Assembly: GCF_011839805.1 (NCBI RefSeq)
Contig: NZ_VWPY01000033.1
Coordinates: 1 to 47,358 of the forward strand
Length of the DNA stretch: 47,358 nucleotides
Direction: 5' to 3'
Source of the DNA: Kineococcus rubinsiae
GTDB lineage: Bacteria > Actinomycetota > Actinomycetes > Actinomycetales > Kineococcaceae
The notes under the pieces were generated by a model that was not told where the DNA came from, did not search any database, and saw nothing but the letters and a program-made list of their open reading frames with translations. A program made the position numbers and the translations under genes. Positions 23,576 to 38,570 of the stretch are shown one piece after another. Within the stretch, counting starts at the first letter, position 1, and each line of letters begins with the position of its first letter.

Positions 23576-23611
23576 GGTGGGGACCTCCTGGGCTCGGTGG
23601 GTGCTGCGTGG

Positions 23612-23637
23612 TGGATCGGTGCGCTGGATCGGTGCGC
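23612..23637. repeat. 13-bp tandem repeat upstream of the amidase
   Basis: TGGATCGGTGCGC occurs twice in tandem (23612-23624, 23625-23637) followed by a decayed third copy (TGGTGCGGTGC). It lies in the amidase-luxR divergent region. Confidence 0.8.
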
Positions 23638-23750
23638 TGGTGCGGTGCTCTGTCGTGGTGGCGGGGGCGGCGGGTTTCCCCCCCGTGTCGTCGCTGTCAA
23701 CTTCTCGTGACGGCCCTCCCGCAGGGGGTCACGGCGGACCGGGACCGACC

Positions 23751-23756
23751 TAGGGT
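23751..23756 (+). promoter_or_regulatory. Leaderless -10 (TAGGGT) of the LuxR-type gene
   Basis: TAGGGT ends 6 nt before ATG 23763; no ribosome-binding site. Confidence 0.6.
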
Positions 23757-23762
23757 TCGGTC

Positions 23763-24749
23763 ATGGACTGGCAGACGGCCGCGAGCGCGGCGGGTCGGAT
23801 CGCGGGTGCCGCCGCGCAGGACGCGCCGCAGGGGTTGCGGGCCCTGGAGACCCTCGAGGAGCTGCGCGGGCTGATCCCCTTCCTGGGCGCGTCGCTGAGC
23901 GCCTGGGACGAGCAGCGGGGCGAGCACGTCGTGGTGGCGGAGGCCGGCTACCGCGACGAGACCCTGGGCGCCCTGAACGGCCAGTCCTACCTCGACGACC
24001 CGACCTGGCACGTCACCTACGGACGACGCGTCCCGGTCCCCTGGCGCGACATGCCGTTCGCCCCGGAGGAGTCGCCGATCATCCGCGACAGCCTCCTGCC
24101 CTGCGGCTACCGGGAGGGGATGACGGCCCCCTTCTTCCGCTCCGACGGCGGGTACTCGGGGATGCTCACGCTCAACACGGACTCCGTGTCCGAACCCTCC
24201 GAGGCGGCGCTGGAGATGCTCCGCCTGCTCTCCCCCCGGTTGTCCGACGTGGTGGACGGGGCGCCCGCGGCGAGCACCCCGTCCGGCCCCGGCCCCGGCC
24301 AGCACCGCCTCGCGGTCTCCGCCGGTGGTCTCTGCACCCCGCTCGACGACGACCGCGTCCCCCCGCCCGAACTCGTCGAGACGATCCGCGGCTGCCTGCG
24401 CGCCGGCCCCGGTGCGGCGAGCTTCCTCGTCTGGGAACGCGGCGAACGGCTGCCGTGGCACGTCGCCGTCGAGACGGCGGCCGAGGCGGGACTCGCCGGC
24501 ATCGTCACCTGCACGCGCAGTTCCGTCCCCGAGCGGCTCTCCCGCCGCGAGCTGGAGGTCCTCGCGGGACTCGTCGTCGGTCTGTCGAACCAGGAGATCG
24601 CGGACGCGCTGCGAGCGAGCCGCCGCACGATCTCGACGCACGTCGAGCACATCCTCGCCAAGCTCGGGGTGCGCAGCCGCACCGAGGCGGCCACCCGCGC
24701 GGCGCGCGAGGGGCTGCACCTGCCCGGGGCCCTGCTCACCGCCACCTGA
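23763..24749 (+). CDS. LuxR-type regulator with N-terminal sensor domain
   Basis: The 328-aa protein ends in a LuxR helix-turn-helix (about residues 258-320: LSRRELEVLAGLVVGLSNQEIADALRAS through HVEHILAKLGVRSR), with the usual Glu, Gly and Val positions conserved. The first ~160 residues resemble a GAF-like sensor (SLSAWDEQRGEH, GMLTLNTDS) with no phospho-acceptor receiver domain, so it is probably a ligand- or redox-sensing regulator rather than a response regulator. It is divergent from the amidase at 22136-23575, a likely target, and convergent with ureD (5 bp), so it may also serve the urease module. Confidence 0.87.
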   Translation: MDWQTAASAAGRIAGAAAQDAPQGLRALETLEELRGLIPFLGASLSAWDEQRGEHVVVAEAGYRDETLGALNGQSYLDDPTWHVTYGRRVPVPWRDMPFAPEESPIIRDSLLPCGYREGMTAPFFRSDGGYSGMLTLNTDSVSEPSEAALEMLRLLSPRLSDVVDGAPAASTPSGPGPGQHRLAVSAGGLCTPLDDDRVPPPELVETIRGCLRAGPGAASFLVWERGERLPWHVAVETAAEAGLAGIVTCTRSSVPERLSRRELEVLAGLVVGLSNQEIADALRASRRTISTHVEHILAKLGVRSRTEAATRAAREGLHLPGALLTAT

Positions 24750-24754
24750 GGAGC

Positions 24755-25648
24755 TCACGGCAGCAGCACCTCCTCGGCCCACGCCACGGCCGCGTCGACC
24801 GCACCGCGCAGCGCCGAGCCGTCCCGGGCGCAGATCCGCACCGCGACCCCGGCGCCGCCGGGCAGTCCGCTCACCGCCGCGACGGCGGGCGCCCCCGTCG
24901 AGACGTCGCCCGGGTGCGGGAACCCCTCCGCCCACCCGGTGGCCCGGCCCGGGGCGAGGACGTGCACGACCGAGAACGCCGGCCACCGGTGCAGGCTGGC
25001 GGGAACCCCGTCGAGGTGCGTGCGCTCGACGACCACGGGCTCGGCGTCCGGTGCGGTGGCGACCTCGAGCAGCGACCCGAGCACGGGGGCGGGCGCCCCG
25101 CGGTCCAGGCAGGAGGGGTGCAGCACGGTCGCGTCGACGGTCACCGCGGTCGCCCCCGGCTCGAGGAGGACCGTGACGTCCTGCTCCAGCCGGGCCCGCG
25201 GCAGGAGGATCCGCACCCCCGGCCGGTGCAGCAGCCCACCACCGCGGCGCACCCGCAGGGTGGTCGACTCCGCGGCCGGCCCGCGGCCCGCGACCCCGTG
25301 CACGAGAACGGCTCCCTGCCCGAGGACCCGGGGCCGGACGCCCTCGCCGACCACGACCCGCTGGCGGCGCACGTCACCGGGGTGCGTCCCGCCCCCGGCC
25401 TGCTGGACGACCAGGCAGCCCGCGCGCGGGCCCCGGGCCGGGCCCCCGGCGGCGCTCTCCCCCGCCACCGGGTCGACGAACAGCCGGCCGACGACGAACG
25501 GCCACCGGCAGCGGCGCCCGAGGAGGCGGACGCGTCCCCCGGCCGCGGCGAACTCCAGGTCGAGGTCGAGGTCGGGGCCGGCGTCGGGTCCCGGGTTCCG
25601 CACGTCCTCGCGGACGCGCGGGCGGACGGGCAGGTCGAGGACGCTCAC
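24755..25648 (-). CDS. ureD: Urease accessory protein UreD
   Basis: The 297-aa product is a divergent UreD (UreH), the scaffold that binds apo-urease with UreF and UreG during nickel insertion. Recognisable parts are [14 protein letters not shown] near the start, the beta-rich centre ([12 protein letters not shown]) and the C-terminal [34 protein letters not shown]. It is the last gene of the eleven-gene operon and overlaps ureG by 4 bp (GTGA at 25645-25648). UreD is the least conserved urease protein, and the position in the operon supports the call. Confidence 0.85.
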
Positions 25649-26271
25649 GCGAACAGCACCTCGCGGTCCAGCAGGTCGACGACCGCCTCGACGCCGACCC
25701 CCGCGCGCAGGTCCGTGCAGAGGACCGGGCGGCCGTCGCGCACCTCCGCCGCCTCCCGCAGCATCCTCGGCAGGTCGGCGCCGACGTGCGGCGCCAGGTC
25801 GACCTTGTTGACGACGAGCAGGTCGGCGCGCACGACGCCCGGCCCGCGCTTGCGGGGGATGTCGTCGCCACCGGCCACGTCGATGACGAACATCCAGTAG
25901 TCCACGAGGTCGCGCGAGAACGTCGAGGCCAGGTTGTCCCCGCCGCTCTCCAGCAGGACGACCTCGGTGCCCGGGTGCTCGCGCTCGAGGCGGTCCGCCG
26001 CGGCGAGGTTCAGCGACGGGTCCTCGCGGATGACGGTGTGCGGGCAGCCGCCCGCCTCCACCGCGAGCACCCGCGCGGGGTCGATGAGGCCCGAGCGGCG
26101 CACCCGCTCGGCGTCCTCGGTCGTGACGAGGTCGTTGGTGATGACCGAGACGCTGCGCCCGCGCGTCGCGAACACCGCGAGCAGCCGTTCGACCAGGGCG
26201 GTCTTGCCGCTGCCGACGGGCCCGCCGATCCCGATGCGGGCCGCGGGCCGGAACTCGTTCGCCTCGGTCAT
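25645..26271 (-). CDS. ureG: Urease nickel-insertion GTPase UreG
   Basis: The 208-aa SIMIBI GTPase has P-loop GGPVGSGKT (16-24), [13 protein letters not shown], the nickel-binding Cys76-Pro-His78 motif in [34 protein letters not shown] and the [13 protein letters not shown] guanine motif. It couples GTP hydrolysis to nickel delivery into the UreC active site. The N-terminus lacks the His-rich tail seen in some UreG proteins. The ATG (26269-26271) overlaps the ureC stop by 4 bp. Confidence 0.97.
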
Positions 26272-27974
26272 CGCAGCAGGTACCTCCGGTTCAGGGGGAC
26301 CCGGCGCGCCGGCGGCGCGTCGAGCAGGACGCCGTCGGCGCGGACCTCGTAGGTCCGCGGGTCGACCTCGACGTGCGGGAGGGCGTCGTTGCGCACCATG
26401 TCGGCCTTGCGCAGCCCCCGGACGGAGTCGATCCGGACGACCCGCTTGCGCAGGCCGAGCCGTTCCGCGACCCCGTCGTCGACCGCCAGTGAGGACATGA
26501 GCGTCACCCCGAGCTCCGCGGGCGCCCGGCCGTACGCGCCCCAGTTCGGCCGCTGCAGCACGGGTTCGGAGCTGGAGATGCTGCCGTTCGCGTCGCCGAG
26601 GGCGGCCCACGCGACGAAGCCCGCCTTCAGGACCATCGCCGGCTTCACGCCGAAGGAGGCCCGCGGCCACAGCACCAGGTCGGCGAGGCGGCCGACCTGC
26701 ACCGAGCCGAGCAGGTCCCCGGCGCCGACGGAGATCGCGGGGTTCACCGTGTACTTGGCGACGTAGCGCTTGACGCGCTCGTTGTCCGCGCGCTGCGTCG
26801 TCTCCTCGGGCAGCCGCCCGGTGCGCTCCTTCATGACGGACGCCAGCTGCCAGCAGTTCGCGATGTTCTCCGCCACGCGGCCCATGCCCTGGGTGTCGCT
26901 GCCGAAGATGGAGATCGCTCCGCTGTCGTGCAGGAAGTCCTCGGCGACCATCGTGCCGGGCCGGATGCGGGCCTCGGCGAACGCCACGTCCTCGGGCGAC
27001 TCGGGGTCCATGAGGTGGGCGACCATCGTCATCGGCACCCCCTCCTCCAGGCCGGCCGCGGTGAACGGGTTCGTGGGGTTCGTCGAGGCCGGGATGACGT
27101 TGGGCAGTCCCACGCACCGGATGACGTCCGGGGCGTGGCCGCCGCCCGCACCCTCGACGTGGTACATGTGGATCGTCCGGTCGCCGATCACGTCGAGCGT
27201 GCGCTCGGCGAAGCCGAACTCGTTGATGGAGTCGGTGTGCAGGTGCACGGCGAAGTCGTGCGCGTCCGCGGCCCGCAGCGTCGCGTCGATCACCGCGGGG
27301 CTCGCCCCGAAGTCCTCGTGGATCTTCACGGCGCCCGCGCCGGCGCGGACGGACTCGACGACCGCGTCGGGGGACGACGCGCCCCGGCCGAAGGCGACGA
27401 CGTTGACGGGCAGGTCGTCGGCGGCCTGGAGGAACAGGCCGAGGTTCCGGGTGCCGCCGGAACCCACCTCGAACGCCGGCCCGGGACTGCCGCCGATCAG
27501 CGTCGTGGTGCCCGTGGCGAGGGCGTGGTCGGCCTGCTGCGGCGAGATCAGGTGCGCGTGCGTCTCGATGCCGCCCGCGGTCACGACCATGCCGTGCGCG
27601 GGGATCGGCGTCGTCATGTGCCCGACGACGAGGTCCGGGTGCACCCCCGGCATGACGTCCGGGTTCCCGGCCTTGCCGATCCCGACGATGCGCCCGTCGC
27701 GGATGCCGATGTCCGCCTTGACGATGCCCAGCACCGCGTCGACGATCGTCGCCCCGGTGATCACGTGGTCGAGGGCGCCCGACGACGAGGTCGTCGTGGG
27801 CCGGTACCCCTCGCCGTCGCGGACGGTCTTCCCGGCCCCGGCGAGGAGCTCGTAGCCGGGCACGGTGAGGTCCCGCTCGATCTCGACGAGGAGGTCGGTG
27901 TCGCCCAGGCGCACGAGGTCACCCGTCGTGGGGCCGTGGTTGCGGGCGTGGCGGGCGCGGTCGACGGCGGTCAC
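26268..27974 (-). CDS. ureC: Urease alpha subunit UreC, divergent (flap Cys replaced by Ala)
   Basis: The 568-aa protein is a urease catalytic subunit that would hydrolyse urea to ammonia and carbamate at a dinuclear nickel site. Ligands are complete: His139 and His141 (THAH), carbamylated Lys217 and His219 (KIHEDFG), His246, His272 ([13 protein letters not shown]), catalytic His320, Arg336 and Asp360. From 217 to 360 the numbering equals that of Klebsiella UreC. The flap Cys319 of canonical ureases is Ala319 here (MVAHLMD against MVCHHLD), and the block after the first HxH, normally GGGTGPAAG...CTPGPW, is rewritten ([14 protein letters not shown]). This is therefore a diverged branch, possibly with altered substrate use. 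It overlaps both ureAB and ureG by 4 bp. Confidence 0.93.
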
Positions 27975-28702
27975 GCGTCGCCCTGCCGGCCGGCTCCGAC
28001 GGGCGCACCCGGGCCACCGCGGACCCCGAGGAAACCCTGCTCGGCGGCGCGGCGCTCGGCGTCCTCGAGGGCCCCGGGGGCGTCGAGGGGCCCGTCGACG
28101 AGTCCCGCGAACCCGAACACCACGCGGTCCCCGGCCACCGGCACGAGGGCGACCTCGACGGGGATGCCGGGTTCGAAGCGCACCCCGCCGCCCGCGGGCA
28201 CGTCGAGGGTGCGGCCCCAGGCCGCGCGCCGGTCGAAGTCGAGCGCCGGGTTCACCTCGAAGAAGTGCGTCTGGCTGCGGACCTGCACGTCTCGGTCCCC
28301 GGTGTTCAGCACGCTCACGCGGACCCGCTCCACCCCGCCGAACAGCTCCACGGGTTCCGCGCCGACGAACACCTCACCCGGGACGAGCGCACCCTCGGTC
28401 CCCGGGATCGGGTCGAAGACGGCGACGAGCTTGGTCCCCTCGGCGAAGGGCGCGTCGACCATGACGACGCGGACCATCTCGGCCACCCCGGGTTCGACCT
28501 GGTCGGCGCGCAGCAGGCGGCCCGCGCCGTCGCGCACGTCGGGGTAGTCCGCGCCGCGGCGGGCCGCGAGCATCACCTCGTCGGTCAGGTACGCGACGGC
28601 CTCGGGGTGGCTCAGCGGGATCCCCTCGCGGAGGTTGCGGCGGGCGAACTCGGCGGCGAGGAACACCGTCAGGCGTTCCAGCTCGGTGGGCAGGAGGTTC
28701 AC
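27971..28702 (-). CDS. ureAB: Fused urease gamma-beta subunit (UreA-UreB)
   Basis: The 243-aa protein joins the gamma subunit (residues ~1-100: LLPTELERLTVFLAAEFARR, PEAVAYLTDEVMLAARRG) to the beta subunit (about 105-215: LVPGEVFVGAEPVELFGGVERVRVSVLNTGDRDVQVRSQTHFFEVNPALDFDR). Similar fusions occur in Helicobacter UreA and some actinomycetes. A Gly/Ala-rich tail of about 25 residues ends the protein. It forms the trimer-of-heterodimers shell with UreC. The GTG start at 28700-28702 follows a 33-bp gap after ureF, and the stop overlaps ureC. Confidence 0.95.
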   Translation of the reverse strand: MNLLPTELERLTVFLAAEFARRNLREGIPLSHPEAVAYLTDEVMLAARRGADYPDVRDGAGRLLRADQVEPGVAEMVRVVMVDAPFAEGTKLVAVFDPIPGTEGALVPGEVFVGAEPVELFGGVERVRVSVLNTGDRDVQVRSQTHFFEVNPALDFDRRAAWGRTLDVPAGGGVRFEPGIPVEVALVPVAGDRVVFGFAGLVDGPLDAPGALEDAERRAAEQGFLGVRGGPGAPVGAGRQGDA

Positions 28703-28735
28703 GGGGTCCTTCCGGTGGCACGGGAGCGGGGGGAC

Positions 28736-29410
28736 TCAGGTGGCGAAGAGGTGCCCGTCCCGGTGCGGGCGCTCGGCCAGCACGTCGACGAGGGGCGTGC
28801 AGGTGCTGGGGTGCGGCGGGGGTTCGAGGCGCAGCAGCTGCTCGGCCTCCGCGACGGCGCGGGCGACGACCCGCTGGGCGCCGAGGTGCCCGACGAGCCC
28901 GAGCCGGAGCGCGGCCGACGCGGTCTGGGAGACGACGTTCCAGCAGGTGACCGTCTCCACCTGGGCGAGGTCGAGCCCCCGGCCGAGGAGGCACACGGCC
29001 TGGGCCGCGACGAGGTGGCCCGGGGACCGGCCCGCGAGGACCGCCTCCCGCAGCGCCGCGGCCGGTGCGCTGCCGAGGGCGTCGAAGGTGCCCAGCAGCG
29101 CGAGCCCCGCCTGGCGCGATCCCCGGCGCAGCACGTCGACGACGGAGCTCCGCTCGACCAGGGCGTCGAGGGCCAGCGCCTGCCGCGGGCCGGGGTCGGC
29201 GGCGTAGCGGCGCAGGAGGACCCGGTCGAAGGTGTGCCAGCGGTGCCTCAGCTGCTCGGCCAGGAACACGCCGACGCCGTGCTCGTCGAGGACGTGACCC
29301 GCGGCCCGCGCCGCCTCCAGCCCGGAGGAGAAGGCGAAGCCCCCGGTGGGGAACGAGGAGTCGGCGAGGGCGAGGACGTGCAGGGCGCCCGCCGGCGGCC
29401 CCTCACCCAC
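28736..29410 (-). CDS. ureF: Urease accessory protein UreF
   Basis: The 224-aa all-helical protein has the UreF start block LHVLALADSSFPTGGFAFSSGLEAA and the later AAQAVCLLGRGLDLAQVETVTCWNVVSQTASAALRLG. It acts with UreD as the platform that controls UreG GTP hydrolysis during nickel insertion. It lies 6 bp after ureE and 33 bp before ureAB. GTG 29408-29410 is the only sensible start. Confidence 0.93.
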   Translation of the reverse strand: MGEGPPAGALHVLALADSSFPTGGFAFSSGLEAARAAGHVLDEHGVGVFLAEQLRHRWHTFDRVLLRRYAADPGPRQALALDALVERSSVVDVLRRGSRQAGLALLGTFDALGSAPAAALREAVLAGRSPGHLVAAQAVCLLGRGLDLAQVETVTCWNVVSQTASAALRLGLVGHLGAQRVVARAVAEAEQLLRLEPPPHPSTCTPLVDVLAERPHRDGHLFAT

Positions 29411-29416
29411 GGCGCC

Positions 29417-29920
29417 TCACCCACCGGCCCTCGCGATCGCGCCCGAGTCCAGCAGGTCCGCGACGCGGTCGAGGTAGTCCTGCTCCGGCGCCTGCAGCAC
29501 GACCTCGAGGACCCCGTCGTCCATCCGGCAGACCCAGTGCAGGTGACCGGCGAGGAACCCCAGCCGCATGGCCGCGGCGGCGCCCTCGGCGCGCAGGCGC
29601 AGGCGGGGCGCGGAGCGCGCCCGGACGACCACGACGCGCTGCGGCCCGTCGCCGGCGACCGCGAGGACGCTGCCGTCGCCGAGCGCACTGCCCCGGTCCA
29701 GGGCCACGGCGTAGGTGGTCCCGCGCGCGGACGTCAGCCGCAGGCGACGGCGCGGGAGGTCCCCCTCCTCGATGTCGACCTCGTCCACGCCGTCGCGGTG
29801 GCGCAGCTCGTGCAGCCGCTCCGCCAGGCCGGGGTCGTCCTCGTGACCGAGGACCTCCGTGAGCGCCACGACCGCCTCCTGCGCGGTGGGACCCACGTCG
29901 GTGCTCACGCCGCTGCTCAC
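29417..29920 (-). CDS. ureE: Urease nickel metallochaperone UreE
   Basis: The 167-aa protein has the two-domain UreE plan: an N-terminal peptide-binding-like beta domain (EGDLPRRRLRLTSARGTTYAVALDRGSALGDGSVL) and a C-terminal metal domain with LGFLAGHLHWVCRMDDGVLEV, where His126 and His128 fall in the GN-HWP metal site of the family. No His-rich tail is present, so it would be a low-capacity nickel carrier. The start GTG 29918-29920 overlaps the transporter ATPase stop by 4 bp (GTGA), which physically ties the urease genes to the ABC importer genes; GTG 29906-29908 is an alternative. Confidence 0.88.
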   Translation of the reverse strand: MSSGVSTDVGPTAQEAVVALTEVLGHEDDPGLAERLHELRHRDGVDEVDIEEGDLPRRRLRLTSARGTTYAVALDRGSALGDGSVLAVAGDGPQRVVVVRARSAPRLRLRAEGAAAAMRLGFLAGHLHWVCRMDDGVLEVVLQAPEQDYLDRVADLLDSGAIARAGG

Positions 29921-30747
29921 GGCCGGCCCGCGAGCGTCGGCTCCAGGACGGCGTCCAGCAGCAGCTGCGTCGTCTCCGTCTGCGGGTCGCTGAGGAGCTG
30001 GTCGACGGGGCCGCTCTCGACCAGCCGGCCGCGTTCGAGGACGCCCGCGTGGTCGCACATGTGCTCGACGAGGGCGAGGTTGTGCGTCACGAGGAGCAGG
30101 GTCAGGCCCCGCTCCGCCTGCAGGTCCTTGAGCAGGTTGAGCACCTGCGCCTGCACGGAGACGTCGAGCGCCGCGGTCGGCTCGTCGAGCACGACGAAGT
30201 CCGGGTCGGTGATGAGGGCGCGGGCGATCCCGAGCCGCTGGCGCTGACCGCCGGAGAACTCGTGGATGTAGCGGTCCAGGTGCGCCGCCTCCATCCCCAC
30301 CCGCTCCACGAGGTCGACCACGCGGCCGTGGACCTCGCGGTCGGGCACGAGGCCGAAGCGGCGCAGCCCGAACCCGATCTGGTCACCGACCGTGCGCCGG
30401 GGGTTGAACGCGGACCCGTTGTCCTGGAACACCATCCGCATCCGGCTGCGCAGCGCCTGCACGGCCCGGGGCCGCGCCTTGACGATCTCGGTGCCGTCGA
30501 AGTCGACGGACCCGCCGCTGGCGGTCTCCAGCCCCAGGACCATGCGGCCGGTCGTCGTCTTGCCCGACCCCGACTCCCCGATGAGGCCCCACGTCTGCCC
30601 GCGGCGGACGTCGAGGGACACCCCGTCCACCGCGACGACCTCGTGGCCGCCGGAACCGCGGAAGACCTTCCGCAGGTCGCGCACGACCAGCAGGTCCTCG
30701 TACCGGGACCGCTTGCCGCTGCGGGACTTCTCGATCGCCACGCTCAC
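29917..30747 (-). CDS. Opp/Dpp/Nik-type ABC importer ATPase (DppF-like)
   Basis: The 276-aa ATPase has GESGSGKTTTGRM (Walker A), FSGGQRQRLGIARAL (signature) and FVVLDEPTAALD (Walker B), with the QDNGSAFNPRRTVGDQI Q-loop typical of peptide/nickel importers. It is the second ATPase of the pair. The start GTG 30745-30747 overlaps the preceding ATPase stop by 4 bp; in-frame sequence further upstream lies inside that gene. Confidence 0.93.
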   Translation of the reverse strand: MSVAIEKSRSGKRSRYEDLLVVRDLRKVFRGSGGHEVVAVDGVSLDVRRGQTWGLIGESGSGKTTTGRMVLGLETASGGSVDFDGTEIVKARPRAVQALRSRMRMVFQDNGSAFNPRRTVGDQIGFGLRRFGLVPDREVHGRVVDLVERVGMEAAHLDRYIHEFSGGQRQRLGIARALITDPDFVVLDEPTAALDVSVQAQVLNLLKDLQAERGLTLLLVTHNLALVEHMCDHAGVLERGRLVESGPVDQLLSDPQTETTQLLLDAVLEPTLAGRP

Positions 30748-31619
30748 CCCTCCACTGCCGTCAGGACCTCGGTGAACTCCGGCAGCCTGCGCTGCTGCCG
30801 CGGGACCGCCCGCTCGTCGGCCCCCAGCCGCAGCCGCGGCACGGCCTTGACCAGCGCCTGCGTGTACGGGTGCTCGGGGGCGGTGAGGACGCGTTCCGTC
30901 GTCCCCGCCTCCAGCACCCGCCCGCGGCGCATCACGGTCACCGTCCGGCACAGGTGCGAGACGACCCCGAAGTCGTGGGTGACGACGAGGATCGCGGTGC
31001 CCAGCTCGGCGTTCAGGGACAGCAGCAGGTCGAGGATCTGCTTCTGCACCGTCGCGTCGAGCGCCGTCGTGGGTTCGTCCGCCAGCAGCAGCTCGGGCCG
31101 GCAGGCCAGCGCGAGCGCGATGACCACGCGCTGGCGCTGACCACCGCTCAGCTCGTGCGGGTAGGCCCGCAGGCGCCGCTCGGCGTCCGGCAGCGCGACG
31201 AGCTGCAGCGACTCCAGGGCCCGCGCCCGCGCCGTCCGGCGGTCGAGCCGCTGGTGGCGCCGCAGGACCTCCACCAGCTGGGCCCCGATCGTGAAGGAGG
31301 GGTCGAGGGCGCTGAGGGCGTTCTGCGACACCAGCCCGATGTGCCTGCCGCGCAGGGCGCGCAGCTCCGCCGGCGACTTCTGCAGCAGGTCCTCGCCGCG
31401 GAAGAGGATCCGTCCGCTGGTGATCCTCGCGCGCCGCGTGCCGAGCAGCCCGAGGACGGCCAGCGACGTCACGCTCTTGCCGGAGCCCGACTCCCCCACG
31501 AGGCCGAGGATCCCGGACTCGGGGACGGACATGTCGGCGTGCGAGACCGCGTGCACGACGCCGCCGTCGGTGTGGAACTCGACGCTCAGGTCCTGCACGT
31601 CGAGGAGCGGTGCGGTCAC
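30744..31619 (-). CDS. Opp/Dpp/Nik-type ABC importer ATPase (DppD-like)
   Basis: The 291-aa ATPase has Walker A GESGSGKSV, signature LSGGQRQRVVIALAL, Walker B LLLADEPTTALD and the C-terminal EHPYTQALVKAVPRL typical of OppD/DppD. GTG 31617-31619 is preferred because GGGAGGA lies about 7 nt upstream. An ATG at 31665-31667, overlapping the permease stop by one base, would add 16 low-complexity residues (MARPVPVPVPV). It energises import together with the DppF-like ATPase. Confidence 0.9.
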   Translation of the reverse strand: MTAPLLDVQDLSVEFHTDGGVVHAVSHADMSVPESGILGLVGESGSGKSVTSLAVLGLLGTRRARITSGRILFRGEDLLQKSPAELRALRGRHIGLVSQNALSALDPSFTIGAQLVEVLRRHQRLDRRTARARALESLQLVALPDAERRLRAYPHELSGGQRQRVVIALALACRPELLLADEPTTALDATVQKQILDLLLSLNAELGTAILVVTHDFGVVSHLCRTVTVMRRGRVLEAGTTERVLTAPEHPYTQALVKAVPRLRLGADERAVPRQQRRLPEFTEVLTAVEG

Positions 31620-31666
31620 GGCAGGGTCCTCCCTCACGGGAACGGGGACGGGGACGGGGCGCGCCA

Positions 31667-32617
31667 TCAGGTGGTCTGCTTGCGCGGGTCGAGGGCGTCG
31701 CGCAGGCCGTCGCCGATGAGGTTGAACGACAGCGCCACGACGAGGATCACCAGGCCGGGGATGGTCGCGACGTGGAACTTGCCCTCGAGCAGGACGGACG
31801 CCCCGTCGGAGGTCATGATCCCCCAGTCGGGCGTCGGCGGGATGACGCCGACGCCGAGGAAGCTGAGCCCCGCGGCGACGACGATCATGAGGCCGCACAG
31901 CGTGGTCGCGTAGACGAGCAGCGCCGAGACGACGTTCGGCACCAGTTCGCGCAGCAGCAGGTCGCGCGTGGTGGCGCCGGAGGCCCGCGCGGCCTCGACG
32001 TACTCCTTGCCGACCTCCTGCACGGTCGTCGTGTACGCGACGCGCGCCATGTAGGGGATGAGGGTGATGCCGATGGCCAGCATCACGTTGCCGAGGCCCG
32101 CGCCCAGGACGGCGGCCAGCGCGATGGCGAGCAGCACGAGCGGGAAGGCGAACAGCACGTCGAGCAGCCGCATGATCAGGTCGCCGAGGTGGCCGCGCGT
32201 GTAGCCCGCGACCAGGCCGGCCAGCAGCGCGATCGGGAAGACCACCAGCACGGGCACGACCGCCACCGCGAGGGAGTTCCGCCCGCCCCACAGCAGGCGG
32301 GAGAGGACGTCGCGGCCCTGCCCGTCCAGCCCCAGGGGGTGGCCGGGCGTCCCGATGCCCTGCAGCCGCAGGCTCGCGTCCCCGGCCGTCGGGCTGAACG
32401 GGGCGAGCAGCGGCGCGAACAGCGAGGCGAGCACCACCAGCAGCAGCACGGCGAGCGCGACGACGGCGACCCGGTCGCGGGCGAACGCCCGCACGGCGAG
32501 GCGCGTGCGCGAGGGACGCGCGGGCGGCTGGCCGCGGCGCGGCCGCGGGACCCGGGCCACCTCCGGCGCGGTCGGGGCCGTGGCGGGCAAGCCCGTCGGG
32601 GCCTCGGTCTCGTTCAC
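31667..32617 (-). CDS. Opp/Dpp/Nik-type ABC importer permease (DppC-like)
   Basis: The 316-aa membrane protein has a cytoplasmic N-tail (about 45 residues), a first helix (VAVVALAVLLLVVLASLFAPLL), the HPLGLDGQGRDVLSRLLWGGRNSL motif of DppC permeases, five more helices, and the EAA loop EYVEAARASGATTRDLLLRELVPN that docks the ATPase. GTG overlaps the dppB-like stop by 4 bp. Confidence 0.94.
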   Translation of the reverse strand: MNETEAPTGLPATAPTAPEVARVPRPRRGQPPARPSRTRLAVRAFARDRVAVVALAVLLLVVLASLFAPLLAPFSPTAGDASLRLQGIGTPGHPLGLDGQGRDVLSRLLWGGRNSLAVAVVPVLVVFPIALLAGLVAGYTRGHLGDLIMRLLDVLFAFPLVLLAIALAAVLGAGLGNVMLAIGITLIPYMARVAYTTTVQEVGKEYVEAARASGATTRDLLLRELVPNVVSALLVYATTLCGLMIVVAAGLSFLGVGVIPPTPDWGIMTSDGASVLLEGKFHVATIPGLVILVVALSFNLIGDGLRDALDPRKQTT

Positions 32618-33570
32618 GCGCGCACCGCCCGTCGGCTGCGCGGGTCCAGCACGCCGACCGCGGCGTCCGCGAGGAGGTTCACGAGCACGAACGCCACCGC
32701 GACGAACAGGACGCCCGCCTGCACGACGGGCAGGTCGCGCTGGGTGATCGAGGTGTAGAGCTGCTGCCCGAGACCCGGCCAGCCGAAGACGACCTCCACG
32801 AAGATCACCCCACCGAGCAGGTACCCGACCTGCAGTCCGACGATGTTGACGATGGGCGGCAGGGCGTTGCGCAGCCCGTGCCGCCAGAGGATCGAGGCCT
32901 CCGACAGGCCGGAGGCCCGCAGCGTCCGGATGTAGTCCTGCTGGAGCACGTCGACGAAGACGCTGCGCGACATGCGCGCGATGACCGCGAGCGGGACGAG
33001 CGCCGCGGTGAAGGCCGGCAGCACGAGGTGGGCGAGGAGGTCCTCGAACCCGCCCGGGTTCCTCGAGTTGTACATGCCCGACGTGGGCAGCAGGTCCAGC
33101 GACAGGCCGAGCACGCCGACCAGGACGAGACCGAACCAGTAGACGGGGACGCAGGCCCCCGCCAGGGCGACGAACATCGAGATCCGGTCGAAGAGCCCGT
33201 ACTGGTGGCGGGCCGCGAGGATGCCGAGCGGGATGCCGACGACGAGGCAGACCAGGAGCGCCGCCCCGGTCAGGACCAGCGTGTTCTCCAGCCGCGGGAG
33301 CAGGAGCTGGGAGACGTCCTGGTTGACGGTGAGGGACCGCCCGAAGTCACCGCGCAGCAGGCCCCCGAGGTAGTCGAGGAACTGCACGGCCAGCGGCTTG
33401 TCCAGCCCCAGCTGGGCGCGGACGGCGGCGAGCGACTCCTGCGTGGCCCCGGCGCCGAGCACCGCCCGCGCCGGGTCGCCCGGCACCAGCTGCAGCAGCA
33501 GGAAGACGATGAGGCTGACCCCGAGGAGCACCAGCACGGTCGAGCCGAGCCGGCGCAGCACGGCGATCAC
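32614..33570 (-). CDS. Opp/Dpp/Nik-type ABC importer permease (DppB-like)
   Basis: The 318-aa permease starts with a helix (STVLVLLGVSLIVFLLLQL) followed by the VPGDPARAVLG motif of DppB/NikB. It has the EAA loop DYIRTLRASGLSEASILWRHGLRNALPP and about six membrane helices in all. GTG 33568-33570 overlaps the stop of the binding-protein gene, and GGAGG lies just upstream in the end of that gene. Confidence 0.94.
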   Translation of the reverse strand: MIAVLRRLGSTVLVLLGVSLIVFLLLQLVPGDPARAVLGAGATQESLAAVRAQLGLDKPLAVQFLDYLGGLLRGDFGRSLTVNQDVSQLLLPRLENTLVLTGAALLVCLVVGIPLGILAARHQYGLFDRISMFVALAGACVPVYWFGLVLVGVLGLSLDLLPTSGMYNSRNPGGFEDLLAHLVLPAFTAALVPLAVIARMSRSVFVDVLQQDYIRTLRASGLSEASILWRHGLRNALPPIVNIVGLQVGYLLGGVIFVEVVFGWPGLGQQLYTSITQRDLPVVQAGVLFVAVAFVLVNLLADAAVGVLDPRSRRAVRA

Positions 33571-35207
33571 ACGTCCTCCAGGCTCACGGAGCGCAGGTCG
33601 TACCACTCCTCGCTGGCCGAGACGAAGCCCTTGACGTAGGAGGCCAGGACGTAGGGCGCCTTGTCGTTGACGATGGGGGCGAGGGCGGCGTCGTCGGTGA
33701 CGATGTCGTTGGCCTGGCGCCAGAGGTCGTTGGCCGTCTCCTCGTCGGTGGCCTGGATGGCCGAGGACATGACGGCGTCCAGCTCGGGGTTGCTGTAGTA
33801 GCCGACGTTCGGGCCGTTCGGCGCCTGCAGCGTGCTCGAGGTGACGATGTAGAGCCAGTAGGGCGTCGTCATGCCCCAGGAGATCTGCATCATGCCGACG
33901 CCCTCCTGGGCCCCCTTCGCCCAGGTGCTGAGGTAGGAGATCCACTCCTGGGTCTCGATCTTCACCTTGATGCCGACCTCGGCGAGGTTCTGCTGGATGT
34001 ACTCCGCCATGGGCGCCGGGACGATCTGCCCCGAGCCGTCCACCGACGTCGTCAGGGTCGTCTCGAAGCCCCCGCTGAGCCCGGCCGCGGCCAGGAGGTC
34101 CTTCGCGCGGGCGACGTTGCGGCTGTACTCCGCGGTCCGCTCGACGTAGGCCGCGTTGGCCGGGGCCTGGACGTCGTAGGCGGGGTTCACGGTGCCGGCG
34201 AGGAGGTTCTTCGCCATCCCCTCGCGGTCGATCGCGAGGTTGATGGCCTGGCGGACCTCCTTGATGCCGGTGTAGCGGTCCTTCATGTTGAACGAGAGGT
34301 ACCAGACGTGCGGCGGGATCCCCTCGGAGAGCTGGAAGCCGGCCGAGACGAGGCTCGCGACGCTGTCGGGGCTGGGCACCGAGATCATGTCGACGTCGCC
34401 GCTGCGCAGGGCGGCCACCCGGGCGGAGGCGTCGGGGATCGGGCGGAACACCACGCCGTCGAGCGCGGGCTTGGTGCCCCAGTAGGTGTCGTTGCGCAGC
34501 AGGCTGATGCGCTCGCCGCGGATGCGCTCGTCGAAGGTGAAGGGCCCCGTGCCGACGGGGTGGTCGGCGACGTCCTCGCCGAACTCCTGCAGCGCCTTGG
34601 GGCTCATGATGGCGGTGGACCCGTTGCCGCCCTGGGCGAGCATGCGCAGGAACGGCGAGAACGGCTGGCTCATGGTGACGACGACCGTCGCGGGGTCGGG
34701 GGCCTGCACGTCGGTGACGAAGGTCCAGATGAAGTTGGTCTGCCCGGCCGCCTTCGCGTTGTACTGCGGCGAGGTCTCGTCCCACATGCGCCGGATGTTG
34801 TACTCGACCGCCGCCGCGTCCAGGGCCGTGCCGTCGTGGAAGGTGACGCCCTGGCGGACGTGGAAGGTGTAGACCTTCCCGTCCTCCGACACGTCCCACG
34901 ACTCGGCCAGGCCCGGGGTCAGCTCCGGCACCGCCGCCTCGCTGGAGGGCGTCGTCAGGTCCTCGTCGACGAGCGCCTCGAAGATCTGGCGGTTGATCCG
35001 CCAGGTGACCCAGCCGCCGGCGACCTGGGGGTCGAGGACGTCGGCCTCCGACTCGATGCCGATGACCAGCGTCTGGCTGCCGCCACCGCCGCCCTCACCG
35101 CCGCCGCCGCTCCCGCTGCCTCCGCCGCAGGCGGTCGGGACGAACATCGCGGCCAGGCCGGCGGTGACCACACCGCGCCGGCCTACGCGCATCTCGCTCT
35201 TGGGCAC
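33567..35207 (-). CDS. Family 5 extracellular solute-binding lipoprotein (Opp/Nik type), first gene of the urease operon
   Basis: The 546-aa protein has a twin-arginine signal (Arg10-Arg11, GRRGVVTAG) and a lipoprotein cysteine near residue 27, then a Gly/Ser linker. The SBP_bac_5 fold follows (TLVIGIESEADVLDPQVAGGW, YTFHVRQGVTFHDGTALDAAAVEYN, NLAIDREGMAKNLLAG). Family ligands include peptides, nickel complexes and other small polar solutes. It is not a urea-type (Urt/LivJ) binding protein. GAGGAG 7 nt upstream supports GTG 35205-35207. It heads an operon of overlapping genes running to ureD, so its ligand should be either nickel for the urease or a nitrogenous substrate of the module. Confidence 0.92.
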   Translation of the reverse strand: MPKSEMRVGRRGVVTAGLAAMFVPTACGGGSGSGGGGEGGGGGSQTLVIGIESEADVLDPQVAGGWVTWRINRQIFEALVDEDLTTPSSEAAVPELTPGLAESWDVSEDGKVYTFHVRQGVTFHDGTALDAAAVEYNIRRMWDETSPQYNAKAAGQTNFIWTFVTDVQAPDPATVVVTMSQPFSPFLRMLAQGGNGSTAIMSPKALQEFGEDVADHPVGTGPFTFDERIRGERISLLRNDTYWGTKPALDGVVFRPIPDASARVAALRSGDVDMISVPSPDSVASLVSAGFQLSEGIPPHVWYLSFNMKDRYTGIKEVRQAINLAIDREGMAKNLLAGTVNPAYDVQAPANAAYVERTAEYSRNVARAKDLLAAAGLSGGFETTLTTSVDGSGQIVPAPMAEYIQQNLAEVGIKVKIETQEWISYLSTWAKGAQEGVGMMQISWGMTTPYWLYIVTSSTLQAPNGPNVGYYSNPELDAVMSSAIQATDEETANDLWRQANDIVTDDAALAPIVNDKAPYVLASYVKGFVSASEEWYDLRSVSLEDV

Positions 35208-35293
35208 AGCAACTCCTCGTCAGCGCATCGGGACCCCCGGGGGAAGGTGGTGGTCCGACGCCGCTGGCGGTCCCTCCGGGGTGGTTGCCGGGA

Positions 35294-35323
35294 ACAGTAG
35301 GCAGCGTGGCGCGGGCGCGGCAA
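35294..35323 (-). promoter_or_regulatory. Promoter of the transporter-urease operon
   Basis: On the minus strand TTGCCG (35318-35323) and TACTGT (35294-35299) are separated by 18 nt. The -35 overlaps the first palindrome (35323-35340) by one base. The transcript would have a leader of about 80 nt before GTG 35207. Confidence 0.6.
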
Positions 35324-35340
35324 TACGTCGCCGTACGTAT
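35323..35340. promoter_or_regulatory. Palindromic operator copy 1
   Basis: ATACGTCGCCGTACGTAT has perfect outer arms (ATACGT/ACGTAT). It matches copy 2 at 14 of 18 positions. Its promoter-proximal edge is 23 nt from the -10 of the transporter-urease promoter. Confidence 0.75.
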
Positions 35341-35409
35341 GCCGGGGCCGCGGCGACTGCCTCGAAAGCGATTGTTGCGCAGACGTTTCCGGTGCGTGAC
35401 GAACGCCGC

Positions 35410-35427
35410 GTACGTCGCTCGACGTAT
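35410..35427. promoter_or_regulatory. Palindromic operator copy 2
   Basis: GTACGTCGCTCGACGTAT contains the perfect inverted repeat TACGTCG-CT-CGACGTA (35411-35426). Its promoter-proximal edge is 23 nt from the -10 (35451) of the amidase operon, the same spacing as copy 1. The two copies start 87 bp apart. Confidence 0.78.
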
Positions 35428-35450
35428 GTCGGCGAGCCGGTTCCCGTGGG

Positions 35451-35456
35451 TAGCGT
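35451..35456 (+). promoter_or_regulatory. -10 (TAGCGT) of the GatC-like/amidase operon
   Basis: TAGCGT is 36 nt upstream of ATG 35493. No acceptable -35 hexamer lies 16-19 nt further up, where palindrome copy 2 ends, which suggests dependence on an activator. Confidence 0.5.
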
Positions 35457-35492
35457 CCGGGCACCGCCCCCTCGATCAGACGGAGAAGCAGG

Positions 35493-35681
35493 ATGAGCAG
35501 ATCCCTGGACGCCGCCGCTCTCGGCGCGCTGGCCACCCTGACCCAGCTCGACATGCCGGTCGAGCGCGCCGTCGCCGCCCTCGCGTCCTACAACGACGCG
35601 CTCGTGACCCTGGCCCCGCTGGGCGAGGTCCACCTCGGTGAGACGCCGCCGGCCGCCGCCTTCAACGCAAGCTGGGAGTGA
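35493..35681 (+). CDS. GatC/AtzG-like small amidase partner
   Basis: This 62-aa protein ends 3 bp before the amidase gene. Its pattern (ALATLTQLDMPVERAVAALASYNDALVTLAPLG, then a short linker and PPAAAFNASWE) resembles the small helical GatC/AtzG proteins: a helix that packs on the amidase and a C-terminal strap ending in an acidic/aromatic tail. AtzG, found beside the 1-carboxybiuret hydrolase AtzE, is the closest known parallel. GGAG about 8 nt upstream supports ATG 35493. The fold assignment rests on size, pattern and context rather than on strong sequence identity. Confidence 0.68.
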   Translation: MSRSLDAAALGALATLTQLDMPVERAVAALASYNDALVTLAPLGEVHLGETPPAAAFNASWE

Positions 35682-35684
35682 TCC

Positions 35685-37097
35685 GTGGAACCGTACGAGC
35701 TGAGCCTGTCCGACGCCGCCGCCGCCATCGCGGCGACGGAGCTGTCCCCCGTCGAGCTCACGGACTCCGTGCTCGGTCGCATCGAGGCCGTCGAGGGCGA
35801 CCTGAACGCCTTCGTCACCGTCACGGCCGACCTGGCCCGGGCCTCGGCCGCCGCGGCGGCCGAGGAGATCGCGCACGGCGGTCACCGCGGCCCCCTGCAC
35901 GGGATCCCGATCGCCCTGAAGGACCTCTACGACACCGCGGGCGTCCTCACGACGTCCAGCTCCGCGGTCCGGGCGACGTACGTCCCCGAGCGCGACAGCG
36001 CCGTGGCGGAGCGGTTCGCCGCCGCCGGCGCCGTGCTCGTCGGCAAGACCCACACCCACGAGTTCGCCTACGGGGCGACGACCCCGACCACGCGCAACCC
36101 CTGGGACACGACCCGCGTGCCGGGCGGGTCCAGCGGCGGCTCCGGGGCGGCCGTGGCGGCGGGTGAGTGCATGGTCGGCATGGGCAGCGACACCGGGGGC
36201 TCGATCCGCATCCCCGCGTCGGTGTGCGGGGTCGTCGGCCTCAAGCCCACCTACGGCCGGGTCTCCCGGCGCGGGGTGGCGTCGCTGTCGTGGAGCCTCG
36301 ACCACGTCGGGCCGCTCACCCGCACCGTGCGCGACGCCGCCCTGACGCTGAACGCCCTCGCGGGCTACGACCGGGCCGACCCGGGGTCGGTCGACCGCCC
36401 GGTCCCGGACTTCACCGCCCTCATCGGCCGCGACCTGACCGGGATGCGGGTGGGCGTGCCCACCACCTACTTCACCGAGCGCCTGCAGGACGACGTCCGC
36501 GCCTCGGTCGCGGCGTCGGTGGCCCGGCTGGAGGCCCTCGGCGCGACGCTGGTCGAGGTCGAGGTCCCGATGGCCTCGCAGATGGCCGCCGTGGAGTGGG
36601 GCCTCATGCTGCCGGAGGCCTCGGCCTACCACCAGGAGGCCCTGCGGGCGACGCCCGAGCTCTTCACGGCCGAGACCCGGGGCCTGCTCGACATCGGGGA
36701 GCTGGTCCTCGCGACCGACTACATCAAGGCGCAGCGGGTGCGCGGTCTGGTGCAGGCCGCCTGGGCGGAGATGTTCACCTCGATCGACGTGCTCGCCGCG
36801 CCCACGCTGACGTGCACCGCCACCCTGGCCGGCCAGGACGCGGTCACCTGGCCCGACGGCAGCACGGAGAGCCCGACGGGCACGTACGTGCGCTTCTCCC
36901 AGCCGGCCAACGTCACGGGCCTGCCGTCGATCACCGTGCCCACCGGGGTGGACGCCGGCGGGCTGCCGATCGGGATGCAGATCGTGGGCCGGCCGTTCGA
37001 GGAGGACGTCGTCATCGGGGTGGCGGCCGCCTACGAGGCCGACTCGGGGCTCGGCGGCCAGCTCGCACCGCTGCGCCGCGAGCTCGCCACGGCCTGA
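35685..37097 (+). CDS. GatA/AtzE-like amidase
   Basis: The 470-aa enzyme has the amidase triad at GatA-like positions: Lys79 ([11 protein letters not shown]), cis-Ser149 ([10 protein letters not shown]) and Ser173 ([11 protein letters not shown]). Length and order match AtzE and GatA. There is no gatB nearby and the small upstream gene is AtzG-like, so a catabolic amidase is more likely than Glu-tRNA amidotransferase. GGGAG 6 nt upstream supports GTG 35685. The operon is divergent from the importer-urease operon and shares its palindromic operators, so the amidase probably acts on the imported compound, releasing ammonia or a urea-type product. Confidence 0.88.
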
Positions 37098-37178: not shown

Positions 37179-38570
37179 TCAGGCGGTCGCCGGGGCCGGT
37201 GCGGGCACGGCCGCGTCGTCGGAGAACGCGCCGCGGTAGCGGGCGGCGGGGTGCCGCTCGTTGATCCGCGCCTGGCCGAACAGCTTCTGCCGCAGCGGGC
37301 CCTCGGCGTACTCGCGCTGGGCGAGCCCGCGGTCGCGCAGGACGGGCAGCACGTGGTCGGCGAACTCGGCGAAGGAGCCGGGGATGACCCAGTTCACGAC
37401 GTTGACGCCGTCGACGCCCGCGGCCTGCCACTCCTCGAGGCGGTCGGCGATCTGCTCGGGCGTCCCGACGATCCGGCTGCTCGTGGCGCGCTGGCGCGCC
37501 AGGTCGGCGACGCGGGGCTCGCGGTCGGTGATGTGCTTGCGCATCCACTCCGTGAAGCCCTTGGCGTTGTTGGCGTCCACGTCGCGCAGCAGCGTCTCCG
37601 GCGGGTAGACCCGGCCGGTGCGGTCGACGACGGCGGAGTGCGCCAGGTAGCCGTCGACGCTGATCCACTCGTCGTGCTCGGCGGCCTTCGCCTGCGCCTC
37701 CGCCTCGGTCGAGCCGATGACGAAGCTGAGGCCCTGGAAGAACTTGAGGTCGTCGTCGCGGCGGCCGAAGTTCCGCGCCAGCGCCCGGGTCTCGGCGATC
37801 TGCTCGGCCGCGAGCTTCGGCGACGGCGAGACGATGAACACCGCCTCGGCGTGGCGGGCGGCGAACGTCCGCCCCGACACCGAGGACCCGGCCTGGAACA
37901 GCAGCGGCGTGCGCTGCGGCGAGGGCGAGGGCAGGTGCGGGCCCTCGACGCGGTAGCGCTCCCCGACGTGGTTGATCTTGTGGACCTTGGCGGGGTCGGA
38001 GTAGCGGCTGCCGGCGCGGTCCTTGAGGACGGCGCCCTCGTCCCACGAGCCCTCCCACAGCTTGTAGGCGACGTCGACGTACTCCTCCGCCCACCGGTAG
38101 CGCTCGGCGTGGTCCGTCAGGCCGGGCAGCCCGAAGTTGCGGGCGCCGTTGTCCTGCATGCCCGTGACGACGTTCCAGGCGACGCGGCCGCGGGAGATGT
38201 GGTCGAGGGTGGAGATCTGCCGCGCGAACGTGAACGGGTGCGCCTGCACGATGTTCGACGTCGTCGCCAGCCCGAGGTGCTCGGTGCTGACGGCCAGGGC
38301 GCTCAGCAGCACCGTCGGGTCGTTGCTGGGGATCTGCAGGCCCTCGCGCAGGTAGACGTCGAAGTCGGCGTCCGCGTCGCCGTAGAGGCCGCTGACGTCG
38401 GCGAAGAACATCGCGTCGAACTTCGCGGCCTCCAGCAGCTTCGCGAGGTCGACCCACGTCGAGACGTCGGTGAACTCGGTCTGGTGCGCGTCCGGCCGCC
38501 GCCACTGCCCGTGCTGGATGTGGGAGGTGGTGTTCATGACGAACGCGTTGAAGTGCAGCGGGCGGGTCAT
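37179..38570 (-). CDS. NtaA/SnaA/DszA-family FMNH2-dependent monooxygenase
   Basis: The 463-aa luciferase-fold enzyme opens with LHFNAFVMNTTSHIQHGQWR, typical of the NtaA/SnaA/DszA/SoxA group. It continues with FFADVSGLYGD, HPFTFARQISTLDHISRGRVAWNVVTG, RTPLLFQAGSSVSGRTFAARHAEAVFI and the C-terminal GTPEQIADRLEEWQAAGVDGVN. Members oxidise chelators (NTA, EDTA) or organosulfur compounds (dibenzothiophene sulfone, sulfonates) with FMNH2 supplied by a separate reductase. It is the last gene of an operon under SAM-riboswitch and Cys-leader control, which favours C-S cleavage for sulfur supply. The ATG overlaps the ATPase stop by 4 bp. No flavin reductase gene is nearby. Confidence 0.9.
   Translation of the reverse strand: MTRPLHFNAFVMNTTSHIQHGQWRRPDAHQTEFTDVSTWVDLAKLLEAAKFDAMFFADVSGLYGDADADFDVYLREGLQIPSNDPTVLLSALAVSTEHLGLATTSNIVQAHPFTFARQISTLDHISRGRVAWNVVTGMQDNGARNFGLPGLTDHAERYRWAEEYVDVAYKLWEGSWDEGAVLKDRAGSRYSDPAKVHKINHVGERYRVEGPHLPSPSPQRTPLLFQAGSSVSGRTFAARHAEAVFIVSPSPKLAAEQIAETRALARNFGRRDDDLKFFQGLSFVIGSTEAEAQAKAAEHDEWISVDGYLAHSAVVDRTGRVYPPETLLRDVDANNAKGFTEWMRKHITDREPRVADLARQRATSSRIVGTPEQIADRLEEWQAAGVDGVNVVNWVIPGSFAEFADHVLPVLRDRGLAQREYAEGPLRQKLFGQARINERHPAARYRGAFSDDAAVPAPAPATA

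Follow-up and report, generated by a model that had tools for sequence, protein, structure and literature searches.

A stretch of 47,358 nucleotides of Kineococcus rubinsiae DNA (contig NZ_VWPY01000033.1 of assembly GCF_011839805.1; hereafter the window, 75% GC) encodes, at positions 22136-37097, an Opp/Dpp-type ABC importer, two amidase-signature (AS) amidases and a urease operon whose alpha subunit, UreC, has an altered substrate pocket. Comparison of sequences established this gene set and its conservation in relatives, a palindrome shared by their promoters, the change in the UreC pocket and a link between this kind of UreC and amide hydrolases. The module is real and conserved and, by its palindrome footprint, co-regulated. 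We lean slightly towards reading it as one catabolic regulon, in which an imported compound is deamidated by the AS amidases and finally hydrolysed by a urease-family enzyme whose specificity has changed.

The pathway that we infer, with its metal (nickel), substrate class, order of steps, palindrome-binding protein and altered specificity all putative, would run as follows. The importer would take in an amide-bearing compound, most likely a ureide, an acylurea or another substituted urea. Cytoplasmic AS amidases, one of them probably dependent on a small AtzG-like partner, would liberate ammonia and leave a urea-like remnant, which the urease-family nickel enzyme, matured by its own UreDEFG, would hydrolyse. 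A LuxR-type regulator would probably act at the palindromes.

The module and its conservation

The features of the module are:

22136-23575, minus strand: AS amidase 2 (62% match within the importer operon of genome G862)
23763-24749, plus strand: LuxR-type regulator (GerE helix-turn-helix; autoinducer-binding-domain match weak)
24755-25648, minus strand: ureD, accessory (Pfam UreD, 61 bits)
25645-26271, minus strand: ureG, accessory GTPase (NCBIfam TIGR00101, 232.9 bits against a cut-off of 204.2; longer open reading frame 25645-27117)
26268-27974, minus strand: ureC, divergent urease alpha subunit (profile matches, alignment, tree)
26886-26888, minus strand: UreC Gly363 codon (canonical Ala363; alignment)
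27018-27020, minus strand: UreC Ala319 codon (canonical Cys319; alignment)
27444-27494, minus strand: remodelled UreC substrate loop, residues 161-177, replacing GGGTGPxxGTxATTxTPG (by alignment)
27971-28702, minus strand: ureAB, fused gamma and beta subunits (Pfam Urease_gamma and Urease_beta)
28736-29410, minus strand: ureF, accessory (Pfam UreF, 64.5 bits)
29417-29920, minus strand: ureE, accessory (Pfam UreE_N, 29.9 bits; longer open reading frame 29417-30058)
29917-30747, minus strand: importer ATPase 2, Opp/Dpp type (Pfam ABC_tran; longer open reading frame 29917-30951)
30744-31667, minus strand: importer ATPase 1 with oligo_HPY tail (Pfam ABC_tran and oligo_HPY; longer open reading frame 30744-32291)
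31667-32617, minus strand: permease C (OppC_N)
32614-33570, minus strand: permease B (profile match; longer open reading frame 32614-34899)
33567-35207, minus strand: substrate-binding protein (SBP), dipeptide/GsiB/NikA superfamily (profile matches)
35324-35339, no strand: palindrome TACGTCGCCGTACGTA, candidate operator (pattern scan)
35411-35426, no strand: palindrome TACGTCGCTCGACGTA, candidate operator (pattern scan)
35493-35681, plus strand: 62-aa GatC/AtzG-like protein (position and sequence pattern)
35685-37097, plus strand: AS amidase 1, AtzE-like (profile matches)

An earlier sequence-only reading of the window had described a thirteen-gene module at 24755-37097, and profile scans of the window open reading frames found all thirteen genes there in the order claimed; amidase 2, the LuxR-type regulator and the shared palindrome, which extend the module to 22136-37097, had been overlooked. 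The repeated 4-bp overlaps that it reported are also there: with gene starts as called from the open reading frames, on which junction lengths depend, seven of the ten junctions within the minus-strand operon, that between ATPase and ureE among them, are 4-bp overlaps and one is a 1-bp overlap, the sole gapped junctions being those on either side of ureF (6 and 33 bp).

Pfam and NCBIfam profile searches gave no match for the 62-aa protein. Its proposed GatC/AtzG-like nature is nevertheless upheld by position and sequence pattern, since a counterpart sharing the motif GET.PA..F.A.W[DE] precedes the orthologous amidase in all four relatives described below. Amidase 1 aligns with the Ser-cisSer-Lys triad of AS amidases, and it falls under the cut-offs of both AtzE models (355.7 against 461 and 345.5 against 425.75).

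The thirteen-gene set was found in five actinobacterial genomes, namely that of the window, R. kyotonense, M. wolinskyi, G792 and G862; the conservation on which the sequence-only reading had staked itself in advance thus holds in four genomes besides its own. In M. wolinskyi (locus L049) and R. kyotonense (L081) the gene order, on a single strand, is SBP-permease-permease-ATPase-ATPase-amidase-AtzG-amidase-ureE-F-AB-C-G-D, with 71-76% identity to the window in SBP and 74-76% in UreC (tblastn pieces), and the G792 block has the same order. G862 has two divergent operons, ureE-F-AB-C-G-D and importer-amidase-AtzG-amidase-amidase, with a LuxR-type gene between them; its third amidase is 62% identical to window amidase 2. 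In the stretches read from R. kyotonense, M. wolinskyi and G792 no amidase 2 ortholog was seen, and these three carry another extra amidase that is absent from the window at that place. In all four relatives the amidases lie downstream of the importer genes on the same strand.

The module is sparsely distributed. In a sample of 394 genomes of the class, the three with a UreC ortholog of at least 74% identity, that of the window included, are also the three with an SBP ortholog of at least 72%; the co-occurrence in the two other genomes has a chance of 1.3e-5 if genomes are assumed independent. Nine further UreC matches among those listed for these genomes have 53-54% identity and the canonical loop, and the SBP has just one other match, at 42%. 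A UreC of this kind was found in 3 of 251 Mycobacteriaceae genomes drawn and, in the genus, in 1 of 11, the window's own, so the gene is accessory there.

The importer is of the Opp/Dpp type. As the sequence-only reading had held, it lies outside the UrtABCDE family: the SBP matches GsiB/NikA/DppA models and the UrtA model is absent among its listed matches, so that urea import of the UrtABCDE type was rejected for the window. The known pairing of UrtABCDE with urease likewise places importer and urease together in one block, but with a different importer; Liv/Urt-type importers adjoin other members of the UreC clade.

Opp-family nickel importers adjoin urease operons in other bacteria, and the importer might accordingly bring in nickel or a nickel complex for the urease, which we regard as very improbable. 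Nickel importers do share the SBP superfamily, and the window SBP matches two NikA models with 191.8 and 151.3 bits; these scores, however, are far under the cut-offs of 393 and 600, and nickel import of the NikA type was rejected. The solved structures closest to the SBP are 5u4o and YliB (197 and 195 bits), not NikA (about 105 bits for the 1zlq type, 124.6 for 4oer). The position of the amidases in the four relatives, downstream of the importer genes, also argues against nickel, as does an SBP relative of 40% identity (L181) whose Opp importer operon contains several AS amidases and nothing recognised as a urease gene. In two other genomes, amidase orthologs (L223 and L224) likewise belong to Opp importer operons that include several AS amidases, again with no urease among the recognised genes; at L223 each of three amidases is preceded by a small GatC-like open reading frame, one identified by a 27-bit match to that of the window and the others by eye. 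Loci of this type, with Opp importers, several AS amidases, small GatC-like frames and no gene recognised as urease, span L223 1-12683, L224 1030-13788 and L181 295-13302.

A palindrome shared by the promoters

The 285-bp divergent promoter of the window contains two TACGT-N6-ACGTA palindromes spaced by 87 bp. If at most one mismatch is allowed, all four relatives (R. kyotonense, M. wolinskyi, G792 and G862) have this palindrome upstream of SBP, and G862 has an additional one 36 bp before the ureE start codon, that is, ahead of its separate urease operon. The pattern was defined on the window, and the independent evidence is therefore confined to the relatives: five sites in five promoter stretches of four genomes, against 0.042 expected from shuffles, under a one-mismatch limit that was our choice and is needed by three of the five. 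Across the eight relative loci scanned there was one other match, at L081 8161, near a gene junction within the operon.

Exact palindromes at the locus account for 2 of 2 genome-wide in the window genome, 1 of 1 in M. wolinskyi and 1 of 2 in G792, and the whole genomes of R. kyotonense and G862 contain none. A reversed control pattern is at least as frequent genome-wide as the exact palindrome, and the evidence is therefore the location of the sites and not their number. No site was found between amidase 2 and luxR in the window. Since the palindrome stands ahead of the importer operons and also of the split ureE operon of G862, these sequences argue that importer, amidases and urease form one regulon and are co-regulated even where they are split.

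The LuxR-type protein may be what binds the palindrome. Our scan for LuxR-type genes covered the window, G862, G792 and M. wolinskyi, and found them upstream of SBP in G792 and M. wolinskyi too; the G862 protein is 33% identical to that of the window.

The UreC clade, its pocket and its genomic company

In a tree of 65 UreC sequences, the window protein falls in an inner clade of 17 rows (support 100/99) nested within a larger clade of 30 (100/99), the other 13 being termed outer, and separate from the canonical rows. Two long-branched UreC paralogs of the same genome (contigs C65 and C78) group on the canonical side. M. wolinskyi has a third UreC (L148) with the outer-clade loop GPVTVGITSSG, and a contig labelled Frankia sp. 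RB7 (L050) groups with Bradyrhizobium by UreC and gene order and is likely mislabelled or a contaminant.

The alignment shows that the inner clade keeps the metal ligands H134, H136, K217, H246, H272 and D360, that catalytic His219 and His320 together with Asp221 and Arg336 are invariant in 18 rows, and that the urea-contacting Gly277 and His219 are retained; part of these residue roles are described in PMC7433671. The substrate loop, as judged from alignments and in contrast to the canonical GTxATTxTPG, is shorter and reads GPxF[D/E][V/I] in 16 of 17 inner rows and GPNFDT in L168. Position 167 is Phe instead of Ala, and position 168 Asp or Glu instead of Thr, in all 17, with an alignment uncertainty of one or two residues around the shortened loop, and Ala363 is Gly in all 17 inner and all 13 outer rows (30 of 30). 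In S. pasteurii urease, according to the excerpted text of PMC7433671, the carbonyls of Ala170 and Ala366 hold an NH2 group of urea. With a numbering offset of 3 these are positions 167 and 363 here. Because the NH2-holding loop is replaced, this UreC probably prefers a substrate other than plain urea.

The inner clade has lost 33 of the 249 columns that are conserved in canonical UreC; besides positions 167, 168 and 363 these include W222 and the flap positions 308, 312, 314 and 321. The urease had been called divergent, and the altered loop and Gly363 confirm this; its label as an Ala-319 UreC is right for the residue in the window, but the clade is defined by the loop and Gly363, and Ala-319 was rejected as its marker since Cys is retained in Bradyrhizobium loci and L059. 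Compared with canonical ureABCDEFG, the window has the same subunits and maturation proteins and keeps the metal ligands, His219, Asp221, His320 and Arg336; it differs in lacking the loop with Ala167, in having Gly363 and Ala319 in place of Ala363 and flap Cys319, and in the grouping of its urease genes with amidases and an Opp importer as a single regulon.

Of 22 inner-clade loci, 21 have an amide hydrolase no more than 10 kb away, and of 54 canonical urease loci none does (Fisher 7.6e-18; with inner loci collapsed by genus, 10 of 11 against the 54 uncollapsed controls, 6e-11), both Fisher values being overstated because the loci are related and the queries came from clade neighbourhoods. AS amidases alone occur at 18 of 22 inner loci, a fairer count, since FmdA, asparaginase-like and DMFA2 matches at their own loci are self-matches that inflate the full one; the queries for AS amidases were likewise taken from loci of the clade. 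The 22 loci are not independent, comprising several from Bradyrhizobium, two near-identical Rhizobium records and three near-identical Binatia-type metagenome-assembled genomes (MAGs), one of them labelled Desulfurellaceae. Loci with less than 8 kb of flank were left out (L059 of 23 inner; L068, L095, L119, L123 and L127 of 59 canonical), and of these the canonical L068 does have a carbon-nitrogen (CN) hydrolase. Control rows were classed as canonical by loop, and L102 among them has Ala319. At the two paralog loci of the window genome (L006 and L007) no amide hydrolase was found.

The partners vary between lineages. AS amidases occur in the actinobacteria, Bradyrhizobium, Pleomorphomonas, a Burkholderiales MAG and the Binatia-type MAGs, a DMFA2-type protein in a Nocardioidaceae MAG, and FmdA with an asparaginase-domain protein on two Rhizobium plasmids. 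The importer is of the Opp type in the five actinobacteria and Rhizobium and of the Liv/Urt type in Bradyrhizobium, Pleomorphomonas and the Burkholderiales and Nocardioidaceae MAGs. In the outer clade a CN hydrolase is present at 6 of 12 loci, that of L064 being AmiE (680.5 against a cut-off of 427). The proposal that a large, partly plasmid-borne clade of urease-family enzymes changed its substrate, with inner members, in which a loop with Phe and Asp/Glu replaces the urea-binding one, hydrolysing a substituted urea such as an acylurea, or else an amide, and with lineages re-paired with unrelated amide hydrolases and importers, seems to us evenly balanced between right and wrong.

A number of observations weigh against the reading as one pathway ending in a urease of altered specificity. 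Positions 167 and 363 make their contacts through backbone carbonyls, so that urea might still be bound with other side chains there; many of the 33 lost columns (for example 42, 44, 54, 117, 511, 555 and 559) are away from the pocket; and the window UreC scores above the NCBIfam TIGR01792 urease alpha cut-off (700.9 against 680). Among 19 carrier genomes or records of the larger clade, 14 also have a UreC with canonical loop and flap, as does the window genome, and 5 showed none among the loci read; in these 5 the divergent UreC may therefore serve as urease. No amide hydrolase was found at the inner locus L060, which has full flanks, no Opp or Liv/Urt importer was seen beside the operon at L060 or the Binatia-type L061-L063, and the amidases of L061 and L062 lie on the opposite strand. 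Finally, importer-amidase operons exist elsewhere without urease, and amidase orthologs (56-57%) occur in two genomes without UreC of this kind; this separability favours an amide or ureide cargo and disfavours nickel.

These points bear on a less likely but real alternative, that the clade is a drifted true urease, the amidases freeing urea from a ureide or acting on other amides of the same nitrogen regulon. The retained metal and catalytic residues, the dedicated accessory genes and the score above the urease alpha equivalog cut-off fit it well, as do AmiR-type regulators at outer loci and urea-ABC-like SBPs at several loci of the larger clade, that of outer-clade L064 lying above the UrtA cut-off (511.5 against 492.75). 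Drift, however, would sit poorly with a loop pattern fixed across the inner clade (Phe and Asp/Glu each in 17 of 17), and the 14 carriers already have a canonical urease. We consider it rather improbable that the urease-like enzyme itself hydrolyses a small amide, such as a formamide-like one, alongside other amidases acting on one imported amide family. Its companions FmdA/AmdA, AmiE, nitrilase-like CN hydrolases and the DMFA2-type protein do belong to amide-hydrolase families, but the pocket gives no pointer to an amide over a substituted urea, and the urea-contacting Gly277 and His219 are kept.

Urease is regarded as the textbook nickel enzyme with one substrate, and where plasmid members of the larger clade are annotated, the name given is 'urease subunit alpha'. 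From our comparison, plain urea may not be the substrate of some enzymes called 'ureases'. Should the substrate prove different, tallies of ureC in annotation, ureolysis surveys and nitrogen-cycle models would overstate urease, and there would be a new organic-nitrogen pathway to find, with the palindrome as a genetic handle (in the window genome its exact match occurs at this locus only); the urease fold would then have a second substrate class. Among the matches listed in a literature search, which left subscription journals mostly outside, no publication dealt with the replaced-loop clade or this gene arrangement.

Related systems and neighbouring genes

The atzDGEHF genes of Pseudomonas sp. 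ADP and the wider atzG-atzE-atzH clusters also place an AtzG-like protein beside an AtzE-like AS amidase, and the excerpted text of PMC6219798 describes ABC transporters in some of these clusters. The window differs from them by its urease-family enzyme and by an amidase under the AtzE cut-offs; neither AtzD nor AtzF was named among the window genes scanned, which were part of the gene set. HpxY, an oxalurate amidohydrolase with hpxX as its partner, resembles the window amidase as an AtzE-related amidase whose substrate is a ureido compound. The available passages of PMC12625717, which name hpxY, mention no urease alongside it. An AS-type N-carbamoylputrescine amidohydrolase, encoded by different genes, indicates that AS enzymes can take a substituted urea (PMC12283126, in excerpt).

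The module is flanked on one side by an Amidohydro_3 protein (window 20618-22129). At window 37179-43866 an NtaA/DmoA-type FMN monooxygenase and a second Opp-type importer adjoin it, and on that other side there is also a PHP-domain protein, weakly CehA/McbA-like, at 44312-45853.

Outer-clade UreC was found on plasmids L169, L171, L172, L179 and L180, two of the five typed as conjugative; they carry ANTAR/AmiR-like regulators and Liv/Urt importers, and three have a nitrilase-family gene. A Tn3 transposase lies nearby on the Ancylobacter outer-clade plasmid, and at L091 6644-9280 arginase-family and GroEL-like genes precede outer-clade ureABC.

In the window genome, the ureAB-ureC pair of contig C78 (L007 9248-12841) is divergent to an agmatine deiminase gene, and no ureG match was found in that stretch. 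A urease-like pair and an agmatine deiminase gene are about 4 kb apart or less in four congeners (L206, L207, L208 and L209). None of the 11 genus genomes passes the AguB cut-off; all match below it, ten at about 245-254 bits against 410. The C78 pair may hydrolyse N-carbamoylputrescine. A fourth ureC-like gene, on contig C65 (L006 6669-13621), lies near a four-carbon-acid-kinase-like gene and a xylose-isomerase-like TIM barrel, with Gfo/Idh-like and LacI-like neighbours recognised by the start of their sequences only.

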